Of a stretch of 64,000 nucleotides of DNA, positions 59,359 through 64,000 are shown one piece after another. Numbering within the stretch: the stretch's first letter is position 1; the number at the start of each line of letters is the position of its first letter. Under the pieces are notes generated by a model. The model was not told the origin of the DNA and searched no databases. It saw only the letters and a list, made by a program, of their open reading frames with translations. Source of the DNA: Pandoraea oxalativorans (GTDB taxonomy: Bacteria > Pseudomonadota > Gammaproteobacteria > Burkholderiales > Burkholderiaceae); contig NZ_CP011253.3 of NCBI RefSeq assembly GCF_000972785.3, forward strand, positions 3,658,001 to 3,722,000, in the 5' to 3' direction. The translations under genes and the position numbers were made by a program.

Positions 59359-59609
59359 TCTCGCCCTCGCGTCGTACCTGCATGAACGATGCTATTGCGT
59401 CCCGCTGGATAACCTACAGTCTCTCCCTGTAGTTCAGTTAATAGAATGACAAGATAAATAACTGATTAGAAAGGGATTTTCAATTTGCTGTAGCAAATTT
59501 GTAGCACTTGTAATTCGCGGCGGGTTGTGTATGTGGCTTTGGAAATGGCTTTGTTTTTCGGGGTGAAATGTTCGGTTTTCGGGCGCTTTGAACCGCAAAT
59601 TTTTGAGCA

Positions 59610-59804: not shown

Positions 59805-60173
59805 TAGCTATCGTGCCTGCTACGGTGGAGGCCCAGCAACGCCCTCTCCCGCGAACGCGTCGATTGGCTCGAAATCACCTTGAGGCGAGAGACTTCAGGT
59901 CTAGATTCAATGGGATCGATCCGACTCTATCCCCCTCACCGACGCACGCCCAGTCAATAGCACCTCCGCGTATCCCCAATCTCAGAAACGCTTGAGCTGC
60001 CTACCCCGCCGAACTGCCCGTCGGCACTTGCCCCCAGCGGCGAATTTCGCCGACTCGCTGCTGCATACTGACGTCCCCGTTTAGATCTACCAGCATTGGC
60101 AACCCGCGCATGCACCCGCACATCGGCCACCACGCCCTTGACCTTGATACTATTTTTCAATACCATAAATCAC

Positions 60174-60428
60174 ATGAAATCCAAATCAAGACGAACTCTT
60201 GATCTGCTTTTCTCTCGCCCAACTCCGGCCAGCGTGAAGTGGGGCGACCTCGTGGCACTGTTTCATGATCTTGGCGGAGAGCTGGACGAGCGAGAGGGGT
60301 CCCGCGTCGCGGTCTATCTGTTCAACCAAGTCAAGGTGCTTCATCGACCGCACCCATCCCCCGATGTGGACAAAGGTGCAGTTGCATCCATTCGCAAGTG
60401 GCTTGAAGAAAACGGAGTGAAACCATGA
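60174..60428 (+). CDS. HicA-family mRNA interferase toxin
   Basis: This 84-aa protein resembles HicA toxins, double-stranded-RNA-binding-like ribonucleases that cleave mRNA. The core runs VKWGDLVALFHDLGGELDER, EGSR at residues 41-44, then VLHRPHPSPDVDKGAVASIR. HicA proteins usually have Gly-Ser-His here; this one has Arg44, with histidines further on in HRPHP. The start at 60174 is chosen for the family N-terminus. It overlaps the antitoxin gene by 4 bp. Confidence 0.8.
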   Translation: MKSKSRRTLDLLFSRPTPASVKWGDLVALFHDLGGELDEREGSRVAVYLFNQVKVLHRPHPSPDVDKGAVASIRKWLEENGVKP

Positions 60429-60760
60429 ACAACATCATGATCATCGGTGGACACAAGGCAGTCATCGCCTACGATCCAGAGATCGACATGTTCAGAGGTG
60501 AGTTTGTAGGTCTGAATGGGGGAGCAGATTTTTACGCTGCCGACGTTCCAGGATTGCGCGCCGAAGGCGAACGTTCGCTGAAAATCTTTCTAGAGGAATG
60601 CGCACGCCGTGGCATCGAGCCGCAGAAGCAGTTTTCCGGAAAATTCGTTATTCGCCTAGCGCCGAAGGCTCACGAGGCTGCTGCAATCGCGGCAGCTGCA
60701 CATGGGCAGAGCCTAAATCAATGGGTGGCGGAAACGCTTGAGCATGCGGTGCTCGCCTGA
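60425..60760 (+). CDS. HicB-family antitoxin
   Basis: The 111-aa protein has the HicB N-terminal fold (KAVIAYDPEIDMFRGEFVGL, ADVPGLRAEGERSLKIFLEE) and a C-terminal ribbon-helix-helix (KFVIRLAPKAHEAAAIAAAA, then SLNQWVAETLEHAV), which binds DNA and represses the operon. ATGA overlap with the toxin gene indicates translational coupling. Toxin first, antitoxin second is the usual hicAB order. Confidence 0.85.
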   Translation: MNNIMIIGGHKAVIAYDPEIDMFRGEFVGLNGGADFYAADVPGLRAEGERSLKIFLEECARRGIEPQKQFSGKFVIRLAPKAHEAAAIAAAAHGQSLNQWVAETLEHAVLA

Positions 60761-60982: not shown

Positions 60983-61684
60983 TCACGGCGACACAACGAC
61001 CTCTCGAAACCCACCGAGGGCATCACCGCCCAAGACATGCTCGCCGCCAAGACCTTCCGCGATGAAGTTATGGTACTGCCCCAACCATTGGATTTTCTCC
61101 AGCACGCTTGACGACAAGTTACCAACGTTGCATCGCTCAACAACTGTTAAGTGCGCGCGCAGGTTCTCCGGAACAAGGTAATTAAGAAATACCTGATTAT
61201 CCCGATCCATCAACAACATTCGCCTCACAGATTCAACTCCATCAACAGACGTATCGCTGCTATGAAAATACCAATCCAGCAGATCCTGGTCTAGCAGAAT
61301 TCTTGGAAATTTCGCCTTATCGTTCTCCAATAAGTACGCGCGAATAAGTGCCTCGGAATACACCAGAATCTCATCCGCAAAGTGCTTTCCGAGGGCAATC
61401 GCCCCACGAACAAGTACGCCGCCTTGGACTAACATTTGCTGAAGAGAAGTTACCGACTCCACTAGCGCTTGTACATTAGCGCTCGTTAGTGGCGCTGCGA
61501 TCGTTATGCTATCCGAGAACGCCCTGAGATCAAGATTCGGAAATGCTTCGCTGACTTTTCCAAGGAGAGACCGCAAATTCTCCAAATGCTTTGGGCGGAT
61601 TGACCTGGAATCCGATGAGACTAGTGCCGAAAAGCCAAGAATATCGACGAACGCTACCACCCCGTATGACCAATTTTCATCCAT
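60983..61684 (-). CDS. Class III nucleotidyl-cyclase-like protein
   Basis: The 233-aa protein has the core of class III cyclases. Metal-binding aspartates are D14 in GVVAFVDILGFSALV and D58 in LRAFSDSITIAAP; their 44-residue spacing equals that between the catalytic aspartates of mammalian adenylyl cyclase. VLVRGAIALGKHFADEILVY follows as in the second half of the fold. There are no membrane segments or added domains. The C-terminal third is unrecognised. The gene starts 11 bp after the stop of a truncated upstream gene. Its product, if any, may be a cyclic nucleotide, perhaps for signalling in defence, but this is inference. Confidence 0.65.
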   Translation of the reverse strand: MDENWSYGVVAFVDILGFSALVSSDSRSIRPKHLENLRSLLGKVSEAFPNLDLRAFSDSITIAAPLTSANVQALVESVTSLQQMLVQGGVLVRGAIALGKHFADEILVYSEALIRAYLLENDKAKFPRILLDQDLLDWYFHSSDTSVDGVESVRRMLLMDRDNQVFLNYLVPENLRAHLTVVERCNVGNLSSSVLEKIQWLGQYHNFIAEGLGGEHVLGGDALGGFREVVVSP

Positions 61685-61695
61685 ACTTTTCTAAA

Positions 61696-61970
61696 TTATG
61701 CAAAAGCCAACTTCGCGAGTTTGAAAAAACGCTCTTTGAAATCCCCCATGGCAGCGGATCTCTGATCCCAGACGTGCCCTTGCCACTCGGTGTCCTCTTT
61801 TGTCAGCCTCCACACAGGTTTTCCGTTTGAAAGCATCATTGGCGCCAAGCTCGCGAAGTCATGAATCTCAACGCAGAGCGGGTCTTCAAGACAGTGCTTC
61901 GCAATCGCACCCTCGCCAGACACGTGAATAAGCGATGGAAGCAACTTGAATCGCCCCGGCTTTCGAGGAG
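61696..61970 (-). pseudogene. C-terminal ~90 residues of an unidentified gene, cut by IS1111
   Basis: The frame enters from the IS1111 junction at 61970 and ends at 61696. It reads PRKPGRFKLLPSLIHVSGEG, then HCLEDPLCVEIHDFASLAPM and WQGHVWDQRSAAMGDFKER. I do not recognise the family. It lies 11 bp upstream of the cyclase-like gene in the same direction, so the two were probably an operon. The N-terminal part is not in the window. Confidence 0.6.
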
Positions 61971-62124
61971 TAGACAGATGGTATGAACGCCGCCCTCCCT
62001 TCGCGCTGGATTCAGGCCCCGGACACGGAAGTGACTTTGGGAGTGTTGGGTCCCTCCAGAACCGAATGGCATCAATGTGCCAAAGTGGAGGTGTCGCGAC
62101 CACTTGAGGAACGGAGGGACCATC

Positions 62125-63147
62125 ATGAATACTACGACGTTCGGGCTCGACATTGCAAAGCGGGCTTTCCAGATGTATTGGGTCGAAACGGAAACGGGAG
62201 AGATTGTGAACCGGCGGTTCACGAAGCAACAGGTTATAGAATTTCTTGGCCAGCGACCGGCCGGACGGGTGGCTTTGGAAGCCTGCGGAAGTGCGCACTG
62301 GTGGGCACGCAAGATCGTAGCGCTGGGTCATGAAGTCGTATTGCTGCATGCGAGATTCATCCGCCCGTTCGTCCAGAATAACAAGACCGATGCGACGGAC
62401 GCTCGTGCGATCTGGACGGCAGCACAGCAACCCGGCATGCGTTCGGTAGCACCGAAGACAGCGGATCAGCAGGCCACGCTGGCCCTGCATCGCATGCGTT
62501 CACTGCTAGTCAAGTCACGTACCATGCAAGTCAACCAGTTGCGCGGCCTGCTGTACGAATTTGGCGTGACGCTCAAAGCGGGTCGCGTCGCCGGCCTTGC
62601 CGAGGTCCGCGAGCGACTACATGAAATCGAAGAGGTCGTTCCGGGCACGTTGTTCGATGCGCTGCGCGACCAGCTTCAGCACATCGAGCGGATCGACGGC
62701 GAGATCAGGAAACTCGAGAGACAGATCGTTGCCTGGCAACGACAGGAGGCGGCATGTCAGCGGGTCGCTACGATTCCAGGTATCGGACCATTGACGGCGA
62801 CAGCCCTGGTCGCGACGATCGGCGATCCTGCTGCATTCAAATCCGGACGTGAGCTTGCCGCGTACCTCGGCCTGGTTCCCAGGCAAAGCGGTACAGGCGG
62901 CAAGGTACGGTTGGGCGGCATAAGCAAGCGCGGCGACAGCTATATACGCATGCTACTGATTCACGGTGCACGAGCGGTCATGTTCAAGAGCAGGAGCAAG
63001 GGCGCCTGGAGCGAGCAACTGTCCCTGCGTCGGCCTACGAATGTGGTTGCCGTCGCGCTGGCAAACAAGATGGCGCGAACAGCGTGGTCGTTACTCGCGC
63101 ACGACAAAACTTACCAGACAGACTACGCAGCACAAAGGGCTAGCTGA
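62125..63147 (+). CDS. IS110-family (IS1111 group) DEDD transposase, right copy
   Basis: The product is 340 aa and identical to the left-copy transposase, with the same GGAGGGA ribosome site. The DEDD domain (FGLDIAKRAFQ, VALEACGSAHWW, NNKTDATDARAIW) and the Tnp20 domain (IPGIGPLTATALVATIGD) are complete. Since its element ends are intact, this is the copy most likely to be mobile. Confidence 0.93.
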   Translation: MNTTTFGLDIAKRAFQMYWVETETGEIVNRRFTKQQVIEFLGQRPAGRVALEACGSAHWWARKIVALGHEVVLLHARFIRPFVQNNKTDATDARAIWTAAQQPGMRSVAPKTADQQATLALHRMRSLLVKSRTMQVNQLRGLLYEFGVTLKAGRVAGLAEVRERLHEIEEVVPGTLFDALRDQLQHIERIDGEIRKLERQIVAWQRQEAACQRVATIPGIGPLTATALVATIGDPAAFKSGRELAAYLGLVPRQSGTGGKVRLGGISKRGDSYIRMLLIHGARAVMFKSRSKGAWSEQLSLRRPTNVVAVALANKMARTAWSLLAHDKTYQTDYAAQRAS

Positions 63148-63392
63148 AAAGCAGGGGTATCGAGCACGAGTCACGCAGACAGGTTGCGAAGGTCGATAAC
63201 GATGTGATGGCGAGACAGGTTGGTCCGCAAGAACGTAAGCCTGATTGACGCTGTGCGCTTCGAGCGCGCTAGACAGTAGAGGTCGTTCTTGGCGAATTCC
63301 ATCAGGGCGCGCAGGCTGGCCTGCAGACGCCGGATATAAGCCTGCAACCAAATTCTCGTCCAATGTCACAACGATATTACCTTGCAAGCCGG
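63148..63392 (+). ncRNA. Candidate bridge-RNA region of the right IS1111 element
   Basis: The 245-bp region between the transposase stop and the right subterminal repeat has no coding potential. It is conserved with the left copy except for one base (C at 63308 against T at 7888). The recently described bridge RNA of IS110 elements comes from the longer noncoding end, which in the IS1111 group is the 3' side. I did not fold it or identify the binding loops. Confidence 0.4.
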
Positions 63393-63410
63393 GCGGCGTT
63401 CATATAAGCG

Positions 63411-64000
63411 TCAAGCAGCATGGCCGGTCAGCGACAACTATCTTGGCCGGTCAACGGGTGTAGTTGTCGCTGGTTAAGAGGCCATAGTTGTCGTTCCTCC
63501 TTCGCAATTGTCGTTAGGTAATTGACGCCGGCGGGCGCTTTGTTTGTCGCTGGCCTTACGACGGCGATAGCTTTCGACGTTGAGCTCGAAGATCGTCGAG
63601 TGATGGACGAGCCGGTCGATAGCGGCGATCGTCATGCCCGGATCAGGGAAGACATCGTTCCATCCAGAGAAGGGCTGGTTGGCCGTAATCAGCAGGCTTT
63701 TGCGCTCATATCTCTCGGCGATCAGCTCGAACAGCACGCTGGTTTCGGCCTGGTCCTTGCGAGCGTATGACAGGTCATCCAGGATGATGAGATCGAAGCG
63801 ATCGAGCTTCGCGAGCGCGGACGGCAGTTGCAGGCTTTGGCGCGCGGCCTGGAGCTTCTGGACAAGTTCAGCGGTGCGCGTGAACAGCACGCGATAACCG
63901 GCGTCGATCAACGCATGACCGAGGGCTGAGCCCAAATGACTCTTGCCGCCGCCCGGCGGGCCGAACAGGAGAATTGTGGCGCCTTTCTCCAGCCAGGATT
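63411..64000 (-). mobile_element. IS21-family element, right copy, partial
   Basis: The left end and istB 3' part match 10771-11361. The terminal sequence GCGACAACTATCTTGGCC is at about 63428. The element runs out of the window. Confidence 0.8.
63474..64000 (-). CDS. istB: IS21 helper ATPase IstB, right copy, cut by window end
   Basis: The C-terminal 175 residues of IstB match the left copy through the whole visible part, including the Walker A region (GPPGGGKSHLG near 63930) and Walker B (LIILDDLSYARKD). The start and istA lie beyond the window. It belongs to the IS21 element directly right of the intact IS1111. Confidence 0.9.
   Translation of the reverse strand, partial: SWLEKGATILLFGPPGGGKSHLGSALGHALIDAGYRVLFTRTAELVQKLQAARQSLQLPSALAKLDRFDLIILDDLSYARKDQAETSVLFELIAERYERKSLLITANQPFSGWNDVFPDPGMTIAAIDRLVHHSTIFELNVESYRRRKASDKQSARRRQLPNDNCEGGTTTMAS

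Follow-up and report, generated by a model that had tools for sequence, protein, structure and literature searches.

In the 64,000-nucleotide stretch of Pandoraea oxalativorans DNA analysed here (the window; host genome 6.5 Mb, five contigs), a gene for a cyclase-like protein lies directly downstream of the damaged end of another gene. The locus raises the question of what a class III cyclase fold that lacks the Asn-Arg pair of such enzymes might produce. A first-pass annotation had taken the two genes for a candidate signalling or defence system, perhaps a new variant of the Pycsar anti-phage systems. It had placed them 11 bp apart, which agrees with the window ORFs, where both the frame at 60983-61684 and the upstream frame ending at 61696 are present. 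The features of the locus are collected in Table 1.

Table 1. Features at and around the cyclase-like gene (window positions)
Feature	Position	Strand	Remarks
Partial tRNA-Arg(CCT), 5' end	59417..59446	plus	27/30 bases; probable left island junction
HicA toxin gene, neighbour	60096..60428	plus	PF07927 2.4e-9; start codon uncertain
HicB antitoxin gene, neighbour	60425..60760	plus	PF05534 3.9e-20
Cyclase-like protein, candidate effector	60983..61684	minus	intact, 233 aa; predicted class III cyclase fold; D14 and D58
C-terminal quarter of ParA/AAA_31-type ATPase	61696..61946	minus	aligns to about residues 259-349 of the 350-aa Pararobbsia homologue
24-bp repeat	61947..61970		9 other exact genome copies
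IS110/IS1111-type element	61971..63393	plus	transposase 62077-63147, probable ATG 62125; right end approximate
IstB gene, IS21-type element	63474..63998	minus	PF01695 1.3e-44; runs off the window

Predicted fold and active site of the cyclase-like protein

The cyclase-like protein is full length, its 32 best relatives (P0002-P0033) being 68-45% identical to it across 96-100% of its length. A search of 5.8 billion proteins returned 84 matches, itself included, and every named match among them is labelled 'hypothetical protein'. Nothing reached the Pfam cut-off (two chance-level rows had E 0.09 and 0.17), no NCBIfam model and no PADLOC family matched at E 1, and three distant relatives were likewise without a PADLOC match at 0.001. 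The best profile is PHROG 23933 (5.8e-33), of unknown function. The family is likewise without a Pfam, NCBIfam or PADLOC match that passes the cut-off, and its metal site is nearly invariant: among 113 aligned rows, which take in the window copy and some near copies, D58 is kept in all 113 and D14 in 112, the exception being a gap. Both aspartates, and the 44 residues that separate them, had been correctly read at the outset.

Structure prediction gives the protein a class III cyclase palm fold with both metal aspartates, and the objection that a palm domain might be absent falls away; the fold alignment rows mainly cover model residues 1-172, with the last 60 residues outside. The fold matches include 6yii, a solved class III-like ATP-binding protein from P. 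aeruginosa. By sequence only, a PDB search gave no significant match; its top entries were a septin (0.45) and then adenylate cyclases (0.52). PF00211 was absent from the protein at E 1 and from its own genome at 0.001.

When the protein was aligned by hhalign (E 4e-5, probability 70) to class III rows from 30 loci, including L141 (a wrong-frame translation) and the short L152, I114 and L118 occupied the columns of the transition-state Asn and Arg in helix alpha-4. Residue 114 is Ile or Val in 32 of 32 members linked to a ParA gene (see below), and residue 118 is variable. On this alignment the protein lacks the Asn-Arg pair with which class III cyclases catalyse their reaction, and because the pair is lost it may only bind nucleotide. 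It could then be a degenerate sensor that binds NTP and informs ParA and, in the wider family, other defence systems of the nucleotide status, a reading that would suit both the missing pair and the ATP-binding 6yii among the fold matches but that we regard as rather doubtful. R93, R128 and K197 are invariant across the ParA-linked group and could take over catalysis; K197, like the equally invariant W200, lies in a C-terminal helical extra part.

The partner is a ParA-type ATPase

The partner had at first been assigned to no known family. A search for homologues with an intact upstream gene, which had been proposed as a check, was successful, and the gene encodes a ParA-type ATPase, about 345-360 aa long in the cases with a clear start. 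The Pararobbsia protein (350 aa) matches PF13614 (AAA_31) at 9.5e-25 and CbiA at 3.6e-14, and over 88 aa the window remnant shares 69% identity with the C-terminus of that protein. The deviant Walker A motif KGGVSKTT (in one case KGGVAKTT) and DxDxQCN are present in 29 of 31 linked loci, the remaining two carrying partial ParA frames only, and the conserved C-terminal region has the consensus EIPDFASLAPMM...KPVWxLT. Four ParA proteins scanned with Pfam contain AAA_31/CbiA-type ATPase families only, with no cyclic-nucleotide-binding domain, and PADLOC gave just a weak match of Walker A size. The PDB sequence matches of ParA include Soj and ParA; the best of them, 3pg5, is itself an uncharacterised protein.

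ParA/Soj-type ATPases commonly position or segregate DNA, and genome annotations routinely label ParA ATPases as partition proteins of chromosomes or plasmids. The matches to Soj and ParA would fit a role in partition or maintenance, in which the island or plasmid is positioned or segregated by ParA, with the cyclase-like protein as an adaptor in the place of ParB, as would the settings of the module, which sits in this island, on viral-classed contigs and on one plasmid. An adaptor, however, would not need metal aspartates, which are nearly invariant here, and we consider such a role decidedly unlikely, also in view of the enzymes that accompany other ParA relatives (below).

In the window, Walker A and the ATPase domain are absent and only the C-terminal quarter of ParA is left. 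Searching the whole genome with intact ParA returned this piece (residues 259-349) and three distant ParA genes elsewhere, 29-52% identical over their matches (at 0.001); the rest of the partner was found nowhere in the genome. The pair is therefore broken, the ATPase part, about three quarters of the gene, having been lost from the genome, and the window copy is inactive as a pair.

A stranded gene in a probable genomic island

The first-pass annotation held that IS1111 had cut the partner. The partner is indeed cut beside the IS110/IS1111-type element, but the 24-bp repeat lies between the two, and partner sequence is limited to about 61696-61946. This repeat is read as the end of a further insertion element; one copy that was read is followed by a frame of about 346 aa that is also found elsewhere in the island. 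Because of the repeat, the ATPase was probably destroyed by more than one event, including the loss of most of the gene. The start of the IS110/IS1111 element at 61971 agrees with the end coordinate of 61970 originally given for the pair: six other near-full-length, near-identical genome copies begin within 2 bp of it and a seventh, partial, copy 3 bp earlier, and the right end is that of the shortest of the six. Copies occur on two genome contigs, and the element appears to have been recently active.

The toxin-antitoxin pair and mobile elements previously ascribed to this island are present as HicA/HicB (60096-60760) and the IS110-type transposase. The partial tRNA-Arg(CCT) has a whole counterpart at G000:C1:3734948-3735022, some 17.5 kb away and outside the window, and the tract of about 17.5 kb from 59417-59446 to 3735022 is probably a tRNA-integrated island. 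Integrase-like frames were recognised by reading near the whole tRNA gene, and the island is full of transposase-like frames. Several genus relatives have matches to parts of the island only, for example the HicAB stretch at 71-80% identity. DNA of the cyclase gene is absent from the other genus genomes (32 genomes, own included), and a family survey of 398 genomes, own included, found 10 that match the cyclase-like protein at 1e-3, with a strong match only in its own genome and in one other, from another genus, at 64% identity.

ParA linkage and co-divergence

Relatives of the cyclase-like protein are encoded at 251 places among the 84,980 species genomes scanned, of which the best 80 supplied the linkage counts on genomes, and at 33 loci in an IMG/VR scan. 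ParA lies directly upstream in 29 of these 80 genome loci and in the viral loci L082-L084, L082 being a copy of the linked L006. The linkage that had been proposed from the window is genuine: a ParA profile matches in the 2.5 kb upstream in 31 of 31 linked loci, and elsewhere only in L082. Distant family members occur on 39 plasmid records, among which CP131057 carries a ParA-linked pair by profile and is the only one found at 1e-40 with Pararobbsia ParA as query. The family has no match in phage records at 1e-5, and the Buttiauxella pair has no match in E. coli genomes in a DNA-level comparison, whose reach does not extend to distant homologues. Two Bacteroidota loci (L072 and L078) have frames of about 600 aa in which the family domain follows a long N-terminal extension, possible fusions that show another partner.

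A tree of 106 cyclase-like proteins, from which L082, L088, L091, L092, L097 and L113 were left out as near copies, L041 as having no frame and L107 for its cut start, places all 32 ParA-linked rows, the window copy included, in one clade (SH-aLRT 97). The sole other member of the clade, L039, starts so close to a contig end (about 200 bp) that the presence of ParA there is not judgeable. Outside the clade are 73 rows, and ParA is upstream in 0 of the 72 that are testable, L108 being set aside because it begins 141 bp from a contig end; L026, L060, L086 and L111 show just 429-1030 bp of upstream sequence. The ParA-linkage label changes twice on the tree, against 27.5 changes in shuffles (0 of 500 as low). 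Distances between ParA proteins follow those between cyclase-like proteins (Mantel r 0.875, 27 pairs, 0 of 2000 permutations): the two co-diverge. The linked clade takes in Pseudomonadota, Bacillota, Thermodesulfobacteriota and one Planctomycetota MAG.

The module appears to have two genes only, since an all-against-all comparison of 327 neighbouring ORFs from the 31 linked loci found no further family in more than three loci. ParB is not among the 25 commonest families listed of 81 and 87 in Pfam scans of 164 neighbours (up to three ORFs each side in the 31 linked loci), and the gene coupled to ParA is the cyclase-like one. By first-start ORF calls the gap between them is -13 to +12 bp in 24 of the 31 loci, most commonly a 4-bp overlap. 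Relatives have the arrangement that defines a ParA-ATPase/effector module, with a closely spaced ParA upstream and an effector-type gene downstream.

Two closely spaced or overlapping genes in a mobile setting could also be a toxin-antitoxin system, in which the cyclase-like protein is the toxin and ParA the antitoxin or chaperone, any defence being secondary; the RelA/SpoT and HEPN partners of related modules (below) are toxin-like, and at one viral locus in the wider family (L111) a DUF4065-like gene was recognised upstream by reading. An ATPase of about 350 aa, however, would be an unusual antitoxin. In addition, the cyclase-like frame in the window is intact though the ATPase is gone, which is unexpected of an unrestrained toxin and fits a toxin only if it is silent or needs activation by ParA. 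A toxin-antitoxin role is, in our judgement, not very likely.

Other enzymes in the place of the cyclase-like protein

Among 58 ParA-family loci on viral contigs (IMG/VR scan), 32 have a recognised partner directly downstream of ParA, often with a 4-bp overlap. These partners are SIR2_2 in 13 loci, HEPN_RiboL-PSP in 8, RelA_SpoT in 7 and cyclase-like in 4, three of the last being contigs already found via the cyclase and close copies (e.g., L201/L202, L209/L210, L199/L205) being counted separately. They were first classed by reading and then tested with Pfam models: on 32 records PF13289 matched 13, PF18735 8 and PF04607 7, all as expected, and the partners so tested stand just after ParA in 28 of 28. 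The 26 loci without a recognised partner include phage-like settings, cut contigs and fragments. One branch of viral-contig ParA proteins (L163-L172) has no effector-like gene directly downstream, several of its loci having small HTH/repressor-like frames nearby, and these are perhaps phage-borne ParA relatives with another role.

In a tree of 78 ParA proteins, with the duplicates L159, L161, L162, L172, L202, L210 and L212 removed, the cyclase-linked and the RelA-linked proteins each fall on one side of a branch (SH-aLRT 99); the HEPN label needs two changes and the SIR2 label three because rows without a recognised partner fall among them. The ParA proteins that have other partners share only 24-35% identity with Pararobbsia ParA, and for that reason a shared way of working is something we infer from gene order. 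The arrangement also occurs on plasmids, as five examples picked from the search matches (one or two per query) illustrate: ATPase-SIR2 with a 4-bp overlap on Vibrio ponticus pVPon1, ATPase-HEPN on a Burkholderia glumae conjugative plasmid, methyltransferase-ParA-SIR2 on a Salmonella plasmid, ParA-cyclase-like, by profile, on a Hyphomicrobiales plasmid, and a RelA/SpoT-like frame after ParA, by reading, on a Caballeronia plasmid.

SIR2, HEPN and RelA/SpoT are families known as toxic effectors, and it follows from these data that the cyclase-like protein takes the position held in other members by enzymes of toxic-effector families. This bears on two of the alternatives. The occupants of the slot attack NAD or RNA or make alarmone and are not DNA-binding adaptors, and the Vibrio plasmid has a separate annotated ParA-ParB pair beside its ATPase-SIR2 genes, both of which argue against partition; equally, SIR2, HEPN and RelA/SpoT are effector families and not sensors, which argues against a sensor of nucleotide status. 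No ParA-cyclase, ParA-SIR2, ParA-HEPN or ParA-RelA defence pair is described in the literature searched, mainly open-access, and the four are absent from the available passages of PMC9503650, PMC9712102, PMC11326445, PMC7159879 and PMC11224242.

Defence genes in the neighbourhood

Defence-type neighbours were pinned in 6 of the 31 linked loci. BrxD (4.9e-203) and BrxHI (1.8e-272) are directly downstream in L024, RhuM is a neighbour in L010 and L015, Mrr in L018 with a homologue in L013, and an SMC-type protein that matches the LmuB model at 1.2e-21 in L022. PADLOC, run on 15 neighbours one by one, matched 4 and gave nothing for 11. The expectation that homologues would lie beside the partner or beside defence genes is borne out on both sides, by ParA in the 31 linked loci and by these neighbours in six. 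PD-T7-1, LmuB, LmuA, ThsA, PycC and PycTM are all present around 14 members that have no ParA (84 neighbours). No enrichment figure is given, because these neighbours were the intended control and are themselves rich in defence genes. The wider cyclase-like family often keeps defence company. An antiphage function for the ParA-cyclase pair is suggested only by the neighbours and by the partner types of ParA.

Several members without ParA deserve individual mention. At L034:5662-8732 (Agaribacterium) a gap of 11 bp separates a family member from the Lamassu LmuB-type gene upstream of it (2.9e-151, matched by position), a site that might accommodate a third gene of the Lamassu system. Family members were found by reading between or beside type I restriction-modification genes in L067 and L099, with two copies in a row in L067. 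At L047:7983-10360 (Porticoccus MAG) the gene immediately downstream of a distant member is of PycC type (class III profile 9e-14; PADLOC PycC 8.2e-39 among these neighbours), and after it come a probable PycTM, assigned by order, and then a type I methyltransferase-like frame. It is possible that the L047 protein is the third gene of a Pycsar operon. Company of this kind, with LmuB (L034), Pycsar (L047) and type I restriction (L067, L099), would also suit a sensor that reports to other defence systems.

The L047 arrangement, with a distant member immediately before a PycC-type gene and a probable PycTM, further bears on the original proposal of a Pycsar variant, in which the cyclase-like protein would make a cyclic mononucleotide that activates its partner. 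The class III fold and the PycC-like spacing of its aspartates speak for this proposal as well. Against it, the family gene in L047 is an extra beside an apparently complete Pycsar pair, PADLOC is blank at E 1, Asn and Arg are replaced, and the four ParA proteins scanned have no domain with which to bind a cyclic nucleotide; we hold a Pycsar variant to be very unlikely.

A proposed ParA-gated module

With moderate confidence, we favour the view that a two-gene ParA-ATPase/effector module with a role in conflict or defence has left the cyclase-like gene behind as its stranded effector. In an intact module, the ParA-type ATPase would bind DNA as an ATP-loaded dimer and watch for invading or abnormally replicating DNA, holding its partner inactive until triggered and then releasing or activating it. 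The cyclase-like protein would consume or convert nucleoside triphosphates at its two-metal palm, by a chemistry that dispenses with the usual Asn-Arg pair, and growth would stop before the invader spreads. SIR2, a HEPN RNase or an alarmone synthetase would bring about the same outcome by draining NAD, cutting RNA or making alarmone.

More tentatively, such modules may represent a new and widely spread class of immune switch. Its DNA-watching gate would be a ParA-type ATPase that is no partition protein, and its effectors would be interchangeable: a NADase of the SIR2 family, a HEPN-type RNase, an alarmone synthetase of the RelA/SpoT family or a new enzyme with a cyclase fold. The cyclase-fold enzyme would use both metal aspartates and not the Asn-Arg pair, and might so yield a different nucleotide product or poison. 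The pairing of ParA relatives with cell-poisoning enzyme families suggests a family of bacterial self-defence switches that is as yet undescribed. Should a large group of ParA proteins gate toxic enzymes, the label 'ParA family protein' would mislead in many cases, and NAD, RNA, alarmone and cyclase-fold effectors would share a single sensor-ATPase design.

Comparison with known systems

Class III cyclases (PF00211) provide the fold, but the window protein goes undetected by their Pfam model and has I114 and L118 where Asn and Arg belong. Pycsar is alike in that a class III cyclase fold stands by itself and forms part of a two-gene unit carried by accessory DNA, and D14 and D58 share the 44-residue spacing of the PycC aspartates, which are D102/D146 in EaPycC and D62/D106 in AnPycC (PMC11224242). 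It differs in that the window protein matches no PycC model and lacks the Asn-Arg pair, and in that the window protein is partnered by a ParA ATPase, whereas Pycsar has a TIR or membrane effector equipped with a nucleotide sensor. The first-pass annotation had itself noted that the protein is no obvious PycC and its partner no recognised TIR or membrane effector; the PADLOC result at E 1 and the replaced residues accord with the former, and the ParA profile in 31 of 31 linked loci with the latter. Identity with a recognised PycC was rejected on the PADLOC result and the missing catalytic residues, and for the same reasons 'Pycsar-like' is not the nearest description.

The vWA/VMAP conflict systems combine cNMP-cyclase domains, some of them inactive, with MinD/ParA-like domains (Kaur et al., 2020; PMC7159879). 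In these larger systems the ParA-like domains serve as effector domains and are predicted to be inactive, whereas the ParA described here has its ATPase motifs and belongs to a compact two-gene unit.

With ParA/Soj/MinD-type proteins (PF13614) the partner shares the deviant Walker A KGGVSKTT, the motif DADPQCN and its PDB matches, but its fixed partner is a cyclase-like gene and not ParB. In SIR2-HerA, toxSAS RelA/SpoT and HEPN toxin systems, one partner protein is found with NAD-, RNA- or nucleotide-targeting enzymes. The present module is unlike these in having a ParA-type ATPase and a cyclase-like effector among the choices. The better comparison is with a ParA-ATPase module whose effector slot can hold SIR2, HEPN or RelA/SpoT.
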